Below are positions 15,413 through 22,189 of a DNA stretch of 64,000 nucleotides, in pieces. Made by a program: the position numbers and the translations under genes. Below the pieces are notes generated by a model, which was given only the letters and a program-made list of their open reading frames with translations, did not search any database and had not been told where the DNA came from. The DNA is from Neglectibacter timonensis (GTDB taxonomy: Bacteria; Bacillota; Clostridia; Oscillospirales; Acutalibacteraceae), in assembly GCF_900048895.1 (NCBI RefSeq), contig NZ_LT160640.1:434001-498000 (forward strand), given 5' to 3'. The first letter of the stretch is position 1; each line of letters starts with the position of its first letter.

Positions 15413-17944
15413 GTGAAAATTAGTTTTTCAACACTTGCCTGCCCGGATTTTTCATGGGCGGACATTTATTCCATGGCAAAAGACCTGGGTTTTCATGGCA
15501 TTGAGGTTCGGGGTCTGGGTGACGACATATTTGCGGTCAACGCCCGTCCGTTTACGGATGCACAACTGCCGAAGACCGTTGAGAAGCTGAATTCCCTGGG
15601 GCTGGAAATCCCATGCCTTGCATCTGGCTGCGGACTGAAATTCAAAGAGGATTACGACAGGAATATTTCTGAAATCACTCAGTACATTGTGTTGGCGAAA
15701 AAGCTGGGAACGCCTTATATTCGTGTCTTGGGAGACCTGCACCCCCAGCCGGAAGGAGAGGTCGATGACGAATTTGTAGTCTCCACGCTGAAGCTGCTGG
15801 GAACCATTGCTCAGGGTTTTGGCGTCTGTCTGCTGGTGGAGACAAACGGCGTTTATGCTGACACCAAGCGTCTGCGGGCGCTGCTCGATAAAGTGGGAAT
15901 GCCTTCTGTAGCGGCCCTGTGGGATATGCACCATCCCTACCGGTACGCAGGGGAGTCTGCACGGCAGACAGTTGAAAACCTTGGCTCCTACATCAAATAT
16001 GTCCATGTGAAGGACAGCATCGTAAAGGACGGAAAATGCGAATACCGAATGATGGGAGAAGGCGACCTGCCTATTCTGGAAATGTTAGATGCGCTGGTTG
16101 GCATCGGCTATGACGGTTATATCTCTCTGGAATGGGTAAAGCGCTGGGCAAATGAGCTCTCTGACGCCGGCATTGTATTTCCACAGTTCTCTCACTACAT
16201 GCAGAATTATATGGAGTCTCTCTCCAGACACGAGGGGGAGCTTCAGGACAATAATGCCCATACAGGAAAATATGTATGGCCGAAGGAAACGCTGATTAAC
16301 GAGACCTTCCCCGATGTGCTGGACCGGATGGTGAAGGAGTTTCCGGATCAGTACTGCTTCCGTTATACGGAGCTGGATTACACCCGTACCTATTCCGAAT
16401 TCCGGGATGATGTGGATCGGTTTGCCCGGGCGTTGATTGCCATGGGCGTGAAGAAGGGGGATCATGTGGCAATTTGGGCCACCAATGTCCCGCAGTGGTA
16501 CATTACCTTTTGGGCTGCAACAAAGATCGGTGCGGTGCTGGTCACGGTAAATACCGCATATAAAATCCATGAAGCAGAGTACCTGCTGCGACAGTCCGAC
16601 ACCCACACACTGGTGATGATCGACGGGTTTAAGGATTCCGATTACGTAGGCATCATTAAAGAACTCTGTCCGGAACTGAAAGAGAGCGAGCCCGGGAACC
16701 TGCACAGTAAGAGGCTGCCTGTACTGCGCAACATTATTACGGTCGACAGCAAGCAGCCTGGGTGCTATACCTGGGAGGAGGCACAGGTTCTGGCGGACTC
16801 TGTGCCGCAGAGCGAAGTGGAGGCGCGCCGGCGCAGTATTGACAAGCATGATGTCTGCAACATGCAGTATACCAGCGGCACCACCGGGTTTCCCAAGGGC
16901 GTCATGCTTACCCATTACAATGTGGTGAACAATGGAAAAGCCATTGGAGACTGCATGGACCTTTCCACTGCTGACCGAATGATGATTCAGGTTCCCATGT
17001 TTCATTGTTTCGGTATGGTGCTGGCGATGACGGCCTCTATGACCCACGGCACCACCATGTGCCCTATCACCGCATTTTCTCCGCGGAAGGGTCTGCACTG
17101 CATCAATCAGGAAAGGATCACTGCTTTCCATGGTGTTCCTACCATGTTTATCGCCATGCTGGAGCATCCGGATTTTGAAAAGACAGATTTCTCTTATATG
17201 CGAACCGGCATCATGGCCGGTTCTCCCTGTCCGGTTAAGGTGATGCAGGATGTGGTGGAAAAAATGCATATGCCTGAAATCTGCATTACCTATGGCCAGA
17301 CAGAGGCTTCTCCCGGCTGTACAATGTCGAAGACTACCGATTCTCTGGACGTCCGTGTCAACACGGTAGGCGGAGAGATGTTCGGCGTCTCCTGCAAAAT
17401 CGTTGATCCGGAGACAGGGGAAGATTTGCCGGACGACATGGATGGAGAATTTGTGGCTAAGGGCTATAATATCATGAAGGGGTATTATAAAATGCCGGAA
17501 GCCACCGCGGCAGCTATCGATAAAGATGGGTGGCTGCATACCGGCGATCTGGCACGGCGTACGCCGGAGGGGAATTATAAAATTACGGGCCGCATTAAGG
17601 ACATGATTATCCGCGGCGGTGAAAATATCTATCCCAAGGAGATTGAGGACTTCATCTATACCCATCCCAAGGTCAAAGACGTACAAGTGATCGGCGTGCC
17701 GGATGAACAATACGGCGAAGAAATCATGGCCTGCGTGATCCTGAAGGAAGGGGAGACCTCGTCGGAAGAGGAAATCAAAGAATTTGTCCTTTCTCATATG
17801 GCTAAGCATAAGGTGCCGCGTTATGTAGGCTTTGTAAAGGAATTCCCCATGAATGCCGCAGGGAAAATTCTAAAGTACAAAATGCGGGAAGAAGCCGTGG
17901 AACTGCTGAAGCTGCAGAAAGCCAATTCTATCGAAACTGCCTGA
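15413..17944 (+). CDS. Fusion: sugar-phosphate isomerase/epimerase TIM barrel + acyl-CoA synthetase (AMP-binding)
   Basis: One continuous 843-aa frame with two enzymes. Residues 1-270 form a xylose-isomerase-like/AP-endonuclease-2 TIM barrel with the usual divalent metal ligands: E143 (LVETNG), D171 (ALWDMHHP), H198 (KYVHVKD) and E240 (SLEW). Residues about 300-830 are an ANL-family adenylating enzyme with A3 YTSGTTGFPKG (from 486), A5 ITYGQTEASPG, A7 GWLHTGDLA, A8 GRIKDMIIRGGENIYPKEIE and the A10 lysine in AAGKILKYK. Either half is full length for its family. It starts at GTG 15413 after an ACGAGGTAG site. A Gfo/Idh/MocA oxidoreductase follows after 36 nt. The acyl and sugar substrates are unknown. 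Confidence 0.85.
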   Translation: MKISFSTLACPDFSWADIYSMAKDLGFHGIEVRGLGDDIFAVNARPFTDAQLPKTVEKLNSLGLEIPCLASGCGLKFKEDYDRNISEITQYIVLAKKLGTPYIRVLGDLHPQPEGEVDDEFVVSTLKLLGTIAQGFGVCLLVETNGVYADTKRLRALLDKVGMPSVAALWDMHHPYRYAGESARQTVENLGSYIKYVHVKDSIVKDGKCEYRMMGEGDLPILEMLDALVGIGYDGYISLEWVKRWANELSDAGIVFPQFSHYMQNYMESLSRHEGELQDNNAHTGKYVWPKETLINETFPDVLDRMVKEFPDQYCFRYTELDYTRTYSEFRDDVDRFARALIAMGVKKGDHVAIWATNVPQWYITFWAATKIGAVLVTVNTAYKIHEAEYLLRQSDTHTLVMIDGFKDSDYVGIIKELCPELKESEPGNLHSKRLPVLRNIITVDSKQPGCYTWEEAQVLADSVPQSEVEARRRSIDKHDVCNMQYTSGTTGFPKGVMLTHYNVVNNGKAIGDCMDLSTADRMMIQVPMFHCFGMVLAMTASMTHGTTMCPITAFSPRKGLHCINQERITAFHGVPTMFIAMLEHPDFEKTDFSYMRTGIMAGSPCPVKVMQDVVEKMHMPEICITYGQTEASPGCTMSKTTDSLDVRVNTVGGEMFGVSCKIVDPETGEDLPDDMDGEFVAKGYNIMKGYYKMPEATAAAIDKDGWLHTGDLARRTPEGNYKITGRIKDMIIRGGENIYPKEIEDFIYTHPKVKDVQVIGVPDEQYGEEIMACVILKEGETSSEEEIKEFVLSHMAKHKVPRYVGFVKEFPMNAAGKILKYKMREEAVELLKLQKANSIETA

Positions 17945-19270: not shown

Positions 19271-19380
19271 GTGGCAGAAAAGCCGGGGTTCGGATTCTGT
19301 ACAAAAAAGAAAGGAGACTTTTGCCCCCCTTTTCTCATAAGAAAGAGTGAGGGAACGAAGGCATCCCTTAATCAAATTAT

Positions 19381-19417
19381 ACGGCATAGTCTGATAAGCT
19401 ATGCCGTTTTTCTTTTT
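19381..19417 (+). terminator. Intrinsic terminator after the Gfo/Idh gene
   Basis: ACGGCATAG (19381-19389) pairs with CTATGCCGT (19399-19407), followed by TTTTTCTTTTT. Confidence 0.85.
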
Positions 19418-19462
19418 CACTATGTCTCTGTCCAACTGTCATAATAATTCTTTTAAACGCCG

Positions 19463-19493
19463 AAGGGACGCTTCACATAAGGAAGCGTCCCTT
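19463..19493 (+). repeat. Second inverted repeat in the 19271-19635 gap
   Basis: AAGGGACGCTTC and GAAGCGTCCCTT form a perfect 12-bp stem with a 7-nt loop. Only a mixed ACCGTTTCTTCTTT follows, so it is either a second terminator or an element upstream of the channel operon promoter. Apart from this, the terminator at 19381 and the promoter at 19543, I see nothing in the 365-nt gap. Confidence 0.6.
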
Positions 19494-19542
19494 ACCGTTT
19501 CTTCTTTACACAGAATTGGCAGAGGCCTTCACATGAAAGAAA

Positions 19543-19571
19543 TTGTAGACAAATGGCAAAAACGGTATAAT
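19543..19571 (+). promoter_or_regulatory. Sigma-A-type promoter of the ion channel operon
   Basis: TTGTAG at 19543-19548, 17-nt spacer, perfect TATAAT at 19566-19571, 64 nt upstream of the first ATG. Confidence 0.65.
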
Positions 19572-19635
19572 GCTTTTTAGCATCTTGGCTCGTACTGAGA
19601 GCGTTTTAGTTGAAGGAAAATGAGGATGAGGTAAA

Positions 19636-20724
19636 ATGAATTTTAAAGGAATGCAGTCCTGGCAGAAGCGTCGTTTGTTTATCACATTGATCTTGGTTTT
19701 GGGGATTGGGCTGACATTTTTAATCTCCACCTGTACGGCGTTGTATCGGGATAGGACATCGGAAAAGAATTATTGGGATGCAGCTCTGACACCCTCGGAA
19801 ACGGCAATAGAGCATCTGGCGCAGATCGATGAAAACGCTATACAGGTGTCGGTAGGCACCTATCTTGAAACCTTTAAAGAACTTTCCTTGAAAGGCTCCT
19901 CGTATCGGATGGAGTTCCTGCTCTGGTTTCGCTGGAATGGGAATGAAGAATTAGATATGGCGAATAACTTCCGAATTTATAAGGGAACGATCAATAAATT
20001 GCAGGTGGTAAAAGACTATCACGAGAACGGTGAAAATTACCAACTATTGCGAGTGGATGCTTCTGTATTCAAAAATTACTGGACCATTCGCTTCCCGTTG
20101 GAATCTCATCAGCTTCGTATGTATATTGAGTCTAATTATACAGCGGATCGTGTGGTGTTTGTCAATGATAAGGAAAACTGTGGCATAAACGGTAACCTAG
20201 ATATTCCTGGCTATAATCTAGTTCGTCACGATACAGGAATCTTTACCGTGGAAGCGGACAGTAACAATGGTGATCCCGAGCTTCCCGGCTCTGCAATCAA
20301 TTCAGAGTTTGTCACAGCATTGGAGGTCAACCGAGGTAGCTGGGGGTTATATCTCAAATGTTTCATTGCTCTTTTTGGTACTACTACATGGGTACTCATC
20401 ACGCTCTTTATTAATACTTACCACCATGTGGATCCCCTTTCTATGATTCCTGCCGCCCTGTTCGGTACGGTTTCCAACATCATGGTGGGTGCGAACTTGC
20501 TGCCTGACGTACTGCAGATGGGATTGCTGGAGTTTGTAAATCTGTGGGGTGTGATGACCATATTGTCAGTGGCCGTAGTCATCATAAATATCAACCGTAT
20601 CCGAAACAAGTACGAAGATAAGGAATTTGCATCCTTCTATGGGAGAATTATGTTCTATACAATCCTGATCTTGGTTGTTGCGGGGCACATTGCCCTCCCG
20701 CTATCCGCGCTGCTTATCGTCTGA
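19636..20724 (+). CDS. Divergent pentameric ligand-gated ion channel (Cys-loop-like) homologue
   Basis: A 362-aa membrane protein whose segment order matches prokaryotic pLGICs such as GLIC: an N-terminal hydrophobic segment (14-32, signal anchor or peptide), a beta-rich extracellular domain (about 65-230), then four TM helices: M1 238-260, M2 267-287, M3 296-318, M4 337-361. Local resemblances include VSVGTYLETF with FLLWFRWNG (strands with the pLGIC aromatic pattern), RFPLESHQLRMYI (compare YPFDSQTLHIYL), GYNLV, and the M2-M3 linker GANLLPD (compare ETNLPKT). It has one cysteine in place of the pair of eukaryotic channels, as in other bacterial members. The M1 proline is absent. Ligand unknown. 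First gene of a unit with a K+ channel; ATG 19636 follows GAGGATGAGG. Confidence 0.65.
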   Translation: MNFKGMQSWQKRRLFITLILVLGIGLTFLISTCTALYRDRTSEKNYWDAALTPSETAIEHLAQIDENAIQVSVGTYLETFKELSLKGSSYRMEFLLWFRWNGNEELDMANNFRIYKGTINKLQVVKDYHENGENYQLLRVDASVFKNYWTIRFPLESHQLRMYIESNYTADRVVFVNDKENCGINGNLDIPGYNLVRHDTGIFTVEADSNNGDPELPGSAINSEFVTALEVNRGSWGLYLKCFIALFGTTTWVLITLFINTYHHVDPLSMIPAALFGTVSNIMVGANLLPDVLQMGLLEFVNLWGVMTILSVAVVIININRIRNKYEDKEFASFYGRIMFYTILILVVAGHIALPLSALLIV

Positions 20725-20790
20725 ACAAAATGAAATGTCCCACCGCTCAGGCGGAGGGACGAGACCTGTGAAAGAAAGGGGAGGTGCCCC

Positions 20791-21597
20791 GTGCGTGAAA
20801 GAATCTCTCAAATTGTGGAAAAGGCGGAGGACGGCGATCGAATCAGCCATGGCTATGATATCCTCATTAGTCTGACCGCTATAGTCAGCATGCTGCCGCT
20901 GATGTTCAAGCAGCAGGCTGGACTTCTGGAAATGGTTGATACCATCACAGTATATATTCTGTTTCTCGACTACATTCTGCGGTGGATGTCCTATGATTAT
21001 ATCAGCAAATGGTTCCATGGGCGCAGATCGGCCATGGTGATTTATCCTGTTACGCCGCTTGCCCTCATCGACCTGCTGTCTCTGCTGCCTTCCCTGGGCC
21101 TGCTAGGACATGCGTTTCGGTTTTTAAGAATGTTTCGTATCTTTAAACTGTTCCATTATTCCCAGAGTTTTTCCCGTATTCTGCGGGCTTTCGACAAAGA
21201 GAAGAAAGTTTTGGGCTCTGTGCTGATGATTGCTATAGCCTATATCTTTATTTCGGCGTTGGCCATGTTCGCTTATGAACCGGATACCTTCGATTCCTTC
21301 TTCCATGCTTTATATTGGGCCACCACCGCCCTGACCACAGTAGGTTACGGCGACGTGTATCCGGTGACAGATGTGGGAAAGCTCATCAGCATGGTGTCAT
21401 CTCTGTTCGGCATTGCAGTCATTGCCATGCCTGCCGGTATTATCACATCCAGCTTTATGGAGGAGATTAGCCGGGATAAAGAGGCCGCTGCTGCCCGGGG
21501 CGAACAACATACCTCCCTTGCGGTTCGTATTCTCGAGATACGTGAACGCCGTATGGCAAGTGCCGGGAAGGCAGAGGAGGATGAGGACGATGAGTAA
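20791..21597 (+). CDS. Six-TM voltage-gated potassium channel
   Basis: A Kv-type channel subunit, 268 aa. S1-S3 lie in residues 22-105. S4 carries R110, R113, R116 and K119 at every third position (FRFLRMFRIFKLF), a full voltage-sensor pattern. S5 is 139-160, the pore loop and selectivity filter TTVGYGD is 182-188, S6 is 197-221. The C-terminus is short and acidic (EEDEDDE) with no RCK domain. GTG 20791 follows GGGGAGG. It lies 66 nt after the pLGIC-like gene, across a small hairpin (GTCCC/GGGAC, 20737-20762), and its end overlaps the next gene, so the three are probably co-transcribed. Confidence 0.9.
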   Translation: MRERISQIVEKAEDGDRISHGYDILISLTAIVSMLPLMFKQQAGLLEMVDTITVYILFLDYILRWMSYDYISKWFHGRRSAMVIYPVTPLALIDLLSLLPSLGLLGHAFRFLRMFRIFKLFHYSQSFSRILRAFDKEKKVLGSVLMIAIAYIFISALAMFAYEPDTFDSFFHALYWATTALTTVGYGDVYPVTDVGKLISMVSSLFGIAVIAMPAGIITSSFMEEISRDKEAAAARGEQHTSLAVRILEIRERRMASAGKAEEDEDDE

Positions 21598-22162
21598 AAC
21601 AAAGCGATATCTGATCGTCATGCTTCTCAGCGTGTTGATGAACCAAGGTTTCTATATCCTGGCTTCAGACAATGGATTGGATCTGCCCTTTTGGCTGGAC
21701 TTTACCGGCACTGCCTTTGCCGCTATTGTCCTGGAGCCCGCTGCCGGTTTGCTGGTGGGCTTTGTCAATAATTTTTATCTGGCCGTTACTTTGGGAAACA
21801 CCGGAAACATCATCTATTTTGCAGTGAGCGCGGCGATTGCGGTGATCTGCGGCGTATGCATGCGAAAAGGGGGAAGGCTGTTCGCTAAGAGGATTCTGCC
21901 TACTATGGGATTGCTGATCGCAGTTACAGCAGTTATTTCCACCTTGCTCACCATTTGGCGTACCGGCGGTAGGTGCGATTCTAAATGGGAACTGTTCTAT
22001 TACAATATTGCGATGGGATGGAACTGGGGAAAATATGTATCCTGCTTTTTTGGTACCTTGGTTATTAAGATTTACGATATCCTGGCAACCTCTGTCCTCG
22101 TGGCGCTATTCTGGTTTATCCTGCCGAAAAGTCTTACTCTGCGGGGCGAAAAAACGGCTTGA
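21590..22162 (+). CDS. ECF transporter S-component-like membrane protein
   Basis: A 190-aa, mostly hydrophobic protein with about six TM segments. The stretch LPFWLDFTGTAFAAIVLEPAAGLLVGFVNN resembles the substrate-specific S component of energy-coupling factor transporters (a conserved LPxWxDxxGT...GPxxG...N layout). It overlaps the K+ channel gene by 8 nt; ATG 21590 is spaced 9 nt from GAGGAGG. No ECF ATPase or T component is nearby, so it would use the shared module encoded elsewhere, if it is a transporter. Substrate not evident. Confidence 0.6.
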   Translation: MSKTKRYLIVMLLSVLMNQGFYILASDNGLDLPFWLDFTGTAFAAIVLEPAAGLLVGFVNNFYLAVTLGNTGNIIYFAVSAAIAVICGVCMRKGGRLFAKRILPTMGLLIAVTAVISTLLTIWRTGGRCDSKWELFYYNIAMGWNWGKYVSCFFGTLVIKIYDILATSVLVALFWFILPKSLTLRGEKTA

Positions 22163-22189
22163 ATCAGCTTACGGTTTTCCCATGAGCTG

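Follow-up and report, generated by a model that had tools for sequence, protein, structure and literature searches.

We analysed a stretch of 64,000 nucleotides (nt) from Neglectibacter timonensis (contig NZ_LT160640.1, positions 434,001 to 498,000; hereafter the window), in which three consecutive genes on the plus strand encode a homologue of pentameric ligand-gated ion channels (pLGICs), a voltage-gated K+ (Kv) channel and a membrane protein with the predicted fold of the S components of energy-coupling factor (ECF) transporters. The open reading frames (ORFs) are those of gene 1 (19636-20724, 362 amino acids), gene 2 (20791-21597, 268 amino acids, GTG start) and gene 3 (21590-22162, 190 amino acids), with a gap of 66 nt between the first two and an overlap of 8 nt between the last two. 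An earlier note, written from the letters of the window, had described the same arrangement of ORFs as an operon. Eight genera from six families of Clostridia (f1, f13, f42, f75, f79 and f97, window genome included) share the order gene 1-Kv-S, and because of this recurrence we do not regard it as a product of chance. The conserved neighbourhood in Clostridia that the earlier note had proposed to look for thus exists, and it extends beyond close relatives.

Identity of the three encoded proteins

Used alone as a query, the gene 1 protein (P0001) has no Pfam match up to E 1 and nothing in the PDB up to E 10 by phmmer; among NCBIfam models it matches one, at chance level (E 0.77), and searches of genome_contigs and viral_contigs found no relative of it. 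However, a profile of ten gene 1 relatives (A4) reaches the GLIC-GLRA1 chimera 4x5t at E 3.5e-8 and GLIC entries at about 1e-5 to 2e-4, with matches that extend from the ectodomain to the M4 helix. The Pfam family Neur_chan_LBD is reached by three of the ten A4 members at E up to 1 (best 7e-5), and by one of the 15 members of a second alignment (A9, in which one row, L036, is truncated) at E up to 0.01. An AlphaFold2 model with A4 as input (predicted local distance difference test (pLDDT) 79.1, predicted template modelling (pTM) score 0.66) shows a domain rich in beta structure and, at the C-terminus, four helices, and all 50 matches listed when this model was compared with the PDB by Foldseek are pLGICs (best E 2.3e-15, template modelling scores 0.47-0.68). 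The protein can be divided into an N-terminal helix (residues 8-51), the beta-rich domain and predicted helices M1 (237-263), M2 (268-288), M3 (297-324) and M4 (329-361). The N-terminal helix is an extra element that is probably not cleaved off.

Positions given as conserved among pLGICs in the available text of PMC4795631 include an F/YPxD Pro-loop, an Arg before M1, a Pro between M2 and M3, and Leu or Phe at M2 9'. In A9, the Pro-loop is represented by P154 in all 15 rows, F153 in 13 and an acidic residue at 156 in 13 (Glu in the window protein); the pre-M1 Arg (R233) is kept in 14 rows, and both the M2-M3 Pro (P290) and Phe at 9' (F276) in all 15, M2 being numbered with P290 as 23', as in GLIC. 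By these profile and model comparisons, gene 1 is a divergent pLGIC homologue of the Pro-loop type, which bears out the earlier suggestion of a possible ligand-gated channel. Moreover, 13 of the 15 rows carry Asp at M2 -1', which hints at selectivity for cations. As far as they are described in the available texts of PMC549065 and PMC4795631, GLIC, ELIC and other prokaryotic pLGICs share with gene 1 the beta-rich ectodomain with four helices, the Pro-loop, the pre-M1 Arg, the M2-M3 Pro and the lack of a Cys-loop pair. Gene 1 differs from these channels in its great divergence (to the point that the window protein escapes Pfam), its extra N-terminal helix, Pro in place of Arg or Lys at M2 0', an M1 without Pro, and the Kv channel encoded alongside it.

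Gene 2 matches the Pfam family Ion_trans (E 8.6e-26), has six helices and carries both the S4 charges R110/R113/R116/K119 and the filter sequence TTVGYGD that the earlier note had ascribed to it. Among nine aligned Kv rows, a set that excludes a split Kv gene in genome G798 and seven Kv genes without gene 1, R113, R116, Lys or Arg at 119, and TTVGYGD are present in all nine, and R110 in seven. The closest PDB entries by sequence are channels that we take to be Kv2.1, Kv1.3 and Kv4.2, together with archaeal voltage-gated channels whose chains are presumably those of KvAP. On sequence grounds, gene 2 is thus a six-helix voltage-sensor K+ channel, which resembles channels of the Kv2.1/KvAP type in its helices, S4 charges and filter. 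It differs from them in being a short bacterial form, for which Pfam reports no RCK or CNB domain, and in the overlap of its gene with that of an S-fold protein. A variant filter, TAVGYGD, occurs in Kv genes of genus g293 that have no gene 1 neighbour (ITLTAVGYGD in L072 and L074, TTLTAVGYGD in L075).

Gene 3 matches the model for the putative S component CD3073 (E 5.2e-13) with 49 bits, relative to a cut-off of 180, and all ten gene 3 relatives compared match the same model. In its predicted structure, made from three sequences (pLDDT 81.8), gene 3 adopts the S-component fold: each of the 15 best Foldseek matches is an S component, either alone or within an ECF complex (probability 0.97-1.00, best E 8.8e-3), among them entries for RibU, ThiT, FolT and PanT. 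According to the available text of PMC11109136, this fold is common to ECF S components and to receptor domains, and an AXXXA motif in helix 1 is needed for docking to EcfT and is missing in the receptors. The motif is absent from nine of ten gene 3 proteins, including that of the window, and bulky residues stand in its place. Because the motif is missing in these nine, and because S-like domains are also found on relatives with HD domains, we consider gene 3 receptor-like rather than EcfT-docking, and its product is probably of a receptor or regulatory type rather than a transporter. The S-component likeness seen in the earlier note holds for the fold, but its ECF-transporter flavour is a weak point, and the absence of AXXXA led us to drop transport as the leading reading. 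In terms of PMC11109136, so far as its text was available, gene 3 shares a six-helix fold with ECF S components and 5TMR receptors, but it lacks the docking motif of the former in nine cases of ten, and it stands alone beside a K+ channel gene, with no kinase fusion.

The HD-domain relatives are proteins of about 700 residues (L079:3025-5175, L080:1346-3436 and L081:2218-4413), in each of which a CD3073-like S-fold membrane domain at the N-terminus is combined with an HD domain at the C-terminus. That of L079 also has a weak dCache match, and for two of the three the nearest NCBIfam model, below its cut-off, is a cyclic di-GMP phosphodiesterase family. In these proteins, S-fold sensors probably sit on enzymes of the cyclic-dinucleotide type.

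Recurrence and gain or loss of the three-gene block

The three genes occur together in the window genome, G154, G537, Butyricicoccus faecihominis (L011), G913, G688, G735, G797 and G798. The G154 locus is apparently the same as L013, from a rabbit Clostridia metagenome-assembled genome (MAG); the triads of G537 and B. faecihominis are nearly identical, and the assembly of G798 has its Kv gene divided between two frames. Relative to the window proteins, gene 1 is 45-63% identical, Kv 52-61% (without G798) and the S-fold protein 34-52%. Spacing is also conserved, with gaps of 13-66 nt between gene 1 and Kv in those six of the eight triads whose ends are both clear, and a Kv-S overlap of 4-20 nt in all eight triad loci; in L031 the overlap is 8 nt, with the sequence ATGAGTAA.

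In a sample of 391 Clostridia genomes, window genome included, gene 1 was found in ten: six near full length, two partial (G752 and G690) and two small fragments (G880 and G838). All eight matches of at least 91 residues directly precede a Kv-S pair, and no Kv or S gene was seen in the stretches surrounding the two fragments. The S profile matched 63 of the 391 genomes, and at every match with E below 1e-60 (15 in all) the gene immediately upstream encodes a Kv channel; the other 48 genomes, with weaker matches, were left out of this comparison except for L077-L081. Matches to gene 1 in G160 and G367 were set aside for their low identity (25-32%) and internal stops, as was G618, which has a broken S-like stretch without Kv. 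Gene 1 is rare at every rank, with counts that include the window genome of 1 in 29 for the genus, 3 in 200 for the family (one weak), 3 in 345 for the order (one weak) and 1 in 398 for the phylum; the samples of genus, family, order, class and phylum overlap one another, and the genomes in them are not independent. Genus g340 (f76) has gene 1 either in truncated form (G752) or with its start joined to the end of an additional S-like gene (G690, L037). An extra S-like gene also lies between a truncated gene 1 and Kv at L036:7193-7870 in this genus. In G154, an aquaporin (MIP) gene (L009:8384-9076) lies 37 nt upstream of gene 1 and is a possible fourth member of the operon in that lineage.

In the window, the triad lies within a stretch (19271-22189) bounded upstream by a MocA-type oxidoreductase gene and downstream by a convergent MATE gene. 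Of twelve MATE loci compared, one being the window's own, three from congeners (G226, G221 and G205; loci L088, L091 and L092) have the MocA-type and MATE genes next to each other, the matched stretches being about 90-120 nt apart, where the window has 2.9 kb and three genes; these flanks are 74-77% (MocA-type) and 66-69% (MATE) identical to those of the window. No MocA-type match was found within the short stretches available for the other eight MATE loci. Because the flanks adjoin with nothing between them in three congeners, the three genes were gained or lost together. Gene 1 was found in none of the 28 other genomes of the genus, at most 19 of which reach a completeness of 90% or more (20 of 29 once the window genome is counted). 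Gain of the block is the simpler reading, although the gene trees do not settle the matter.

The earlier note had assigned the operon a single promoter, and a possible one (TTGTAG-17-TATAAT, 19543-19571, plus strand) can be read directly upstream, though it is absent from the list of a promoter scan. Its -10 element is perfect (TATAAT, at a spacing of 17), but its -35 matches at three of six positions and promoter-like sites in general are no more numerous than expected by chance (5, against 5.2 +/- 2.1 in shuffles), so the single promoter is weakly supported. A terminator-like hairpin with a T-rich tail (19381-19407, plus strand), 3' of the MocA-type gene, is strong (fold z -4.5, none of 200 shuffles equally stable), and a second one lies at 19463-19493 on the same strand, upstream of the three genes; as a class, terminator-like sites show no excess (4 found, 3.3 +/- 2.0 in shuffles). 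The gap between gene 1 and Kv holds a stable GC-rich hairpin (20737-20760) without a T run on the plus strand, possibly a processing or attenuation element; the fold z of the gap is -2.2, with 5 of 200 shuffles equally stable. The GC content is 44.4% in gene 1, 49.6% in the Kv gene and 47.8% in the S gene, against 49.6% for the window. Further upstream, adjoining the MocA-type gene, a single ORF of 843 amino acids (15413-17944) encodes a fusion of two enzymes, a TIM barrel like that of xylose isomerase and an AMP-binding ligase complete with C-terminal domain.

Proposed function and alternative readings

The interpretation that we favour, at slightly below even odds (about 0.45), is that the three genes form an operon, gained or lost as a block, whose products would turn the presence of ligands into a change of membrane potential, with the Kv channel and the S-fold protein as the core and the pLGIC homologue as an input that can be lost. 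An extracellular ligand would open a gene 1 pentamer, and cations passing through its pore, with the conserved Asp at -1' of M2, would depolarise the cell. The change in voltage would then open the Kv channel, K+ would leave and the response would limit itself, while the S-fold protein may bind a small molecule and modulate the Kv channel as its partner. We place the Kv-S pair at the core because it survives without gene 1 and because the distances of these two proteins correlate best (r 0.74, Mantel p 0.0004, n = 8).

The earlier note had gone further and seen in the two channels a minimal excitability unit, a view that we have downgraded. No voltage-gated depolarising channel was found by the Ion_trans profile (E <= 1e-4), the one profile used for this purpose: Kv is its sole match in the window genome and in six of seven other triad genomes, and G797 has a second match that has not been examined. 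With Kv the sole match in seven of the eight, a graded, self-limiting response seems likelier than an event resembling an action potential, and the pairing of a ligand-gated with a voltage-gated K+ conductance would likewise yield a response that is not regenerative. Electrical signalling through a K+ channel is known from bacterial biofilms (YugO). The two cases are alike in that membrane potential would be shaped by a K+ channel, but in the present operon that channel has a ligand-gated one encoded alongside.

A more ambitious version treats all three products as a single chemo-electrical receptor apparatus, in which the neurotransmitter-receptor homologue and a membrane-embedded S-fold receptor would both control one Kv channel and produce, in Clostridia, a ligand-triggered, self-terminating electrical response. 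We regard this version as speculative and rather unlikely.

Several observations weigh against the conversion of ligand binding into membrane potential by an operon of this make-up. At the level of single proteins, 13 of the 15 A9 rows lack a basic residue at M2 0' (Pro in 12, at P267, and Ala in one; L016 and L017 have Arg) and M1 of P0001 has no Pro. In the available text of PMC4795631 these features are common rather than universal, occurring in 79% and 77% of the pLGIC family, respectively, and residues before M2 are considered unreliable indicators of selectivity in prokaryotes. Gene 2 shows weak similarity to a model of hyperpolarisation-activated channels, so its gating could be of either polarity. 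Correlations of distance that involve gene 1 are weaker than that of Kv with S (r 0.48, p 0.06 with Kv; r 0.32, p 0.16 with S; n = 8, one of the eight gene 1 rows being truncated), and the trees of the three genes disagree, with weak support. As regards horizontal transfer, identity of isoleucyl-tRNA synthetase (IleRS) to that of the window genome is 67% in G154, 60% in G688, 49% in G913 and 33% in G537, an order unlike that of gene 1 (G913 63%, Butyricicoccus 60%, G688 59%, G154 52%). Because IleRS itself may comprise several types, and because the trees are weak and conflicting, we limit our claim to joint gain or loss and do not extend it to transfer.

Homologues of gene 1 also occur away from Kv channels. 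A profile (A1) identified nine loci in genome_contigs (81 stretches matched) and no locus in viral_contigs (145 stretches matched). Two of the nine (L011 and L013) hold the triad and seven do not, although L016 and L019 end at a contig edge and L014 and L018 belong to one MAG. Homologues without a Kv neighbour in the available DNA are present in an Oscillospiraceae MAG (L012; a short contig on which the next gene is convergent), in Listeria ilorinensis (L015, after a Mga-type regulator), in an Atopobiaceae MAG (L014 and L018) and in a planctomycete (L017). The homologue of a Burkholderiaceae MAG (L016) lies at the contig edge with a gene for a TctC-type binding protein upstream, and eight Azospirillum plasmid records contain partial matches, with no Kv neighbour in the two whose neighbourhoods were viewed. 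The Atopobiaceae loci carry tandem pairs of divergent homologues (L014:1-2366, with the first copy cut by the contig edge, and L018:4517-7101, followed by a radical SAM/SPASM gene), which could possibly form heteromeric pLGICs. In Azospirillum B510, L005:3896-4936 encodes the 'hypothetical protein' WP_042444967.1, which is homologous to gene 1 (Neur_chan_LBD 4.8e-4, below cut-off) and has genes for solute-binding proteins in its vicinity. These neighbours agree with the pattern reported for other bacterial pLGICs, whose operon partners in the available text of PMC549065 include periplasmic binding proteins, Cache domains and a Na+/H+ symporter. The triad resembles those operons in having a pLGIC gene beside that of a small-molecule-binding protein, but it pairs the pLGIC gene with those of a Kv channel and an S-fold protein, and no K+ channel partner is named in that text.

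The alternative that survives best is that the Kv channel and the S-fold protein alone are the functional unit, as a ligand-modulated K+ channel that serves the homeostasis of K+ or of membrane potential, with the pLGIC homologue optional and loosely coupled. Of the 15 Kv-S loci in the class sample, eight have gene 1 or a remnant of it and seven have none, and because the pair persists without gene 1 in these seven genomes, the two channels are not an invariant core. Gene 1 is seen only truncated or as a remnant in genus g340, and the closer correlation of Kv with S distances points the same way. However, every gene 1 match of at least 91 residues in the class sample adjoins a Kv-S pair, in a fixed order and mostly at short distance, and we consider a unit of two genes possible but somewhat doubtful. 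Alternatively, gene 3 might be a group II ECF S component that imports a micronutrient by means of a shared ECF module, with the channels setting the potential or osmotic conditions for uptake. In addition to the fold and the CD3073 matches, the folate S-component model is matched by three of the ten gene 3 relatives (E up to 0.001), one S protein (L032) does have AXXXA, and EcfT (PF02361) is encoded in all ten genomes tested, so that transport by gene 3 may still be entertained; the assignment of gene 3 to the S-component fold is itself tempered by the lack of any Foldseek match at E 0.001 or better. Nevertheless, the replacement of AXXXA by bulky residues in nine of ten proteins, and the HD-domain fusions among relatives outside the operon, make import improbable. 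Least likely is a module for osmotic or ionic stress, in which the channels, with an aquaporin in one lineage, would regulate ion content and volume instead of taking part in signalling: a MIP-family gene does directly precede gene 1 in G154/L013, but the upstream genes at the other triad loci inspected are not aquaporin-like (by eye, some via Pfam), and osmotic relief would not call for a ligand-binding ectodomain.

Among the open-licence papers listed in our search of the literature (at most 20 of up to 2,551 per query, judged by titles and the openings of abstracts), none describes a gene 1-Kv-S operon; the protein families are known, but their conserved combination appears to be new within the literature searched. 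The operon points to a genetic coupling of ligand-gated with voltage-gated channels in some bacteria, and with the triad the known uses of the S-component fold may come to include partnership with an ion channel. According to the available text of PMC4795631, no biological role was known for the pLGIC of any unicellular organism as of 2016. A conserved operon of pLGIC, Kv and receptor-like genes in Clostridia offers a specific and testable context for these bacterial relatives of nerve receptors. If the three proteins do act as one chemo-electrical receptor, this would be the first physiological context for a bacterial pLGIC.

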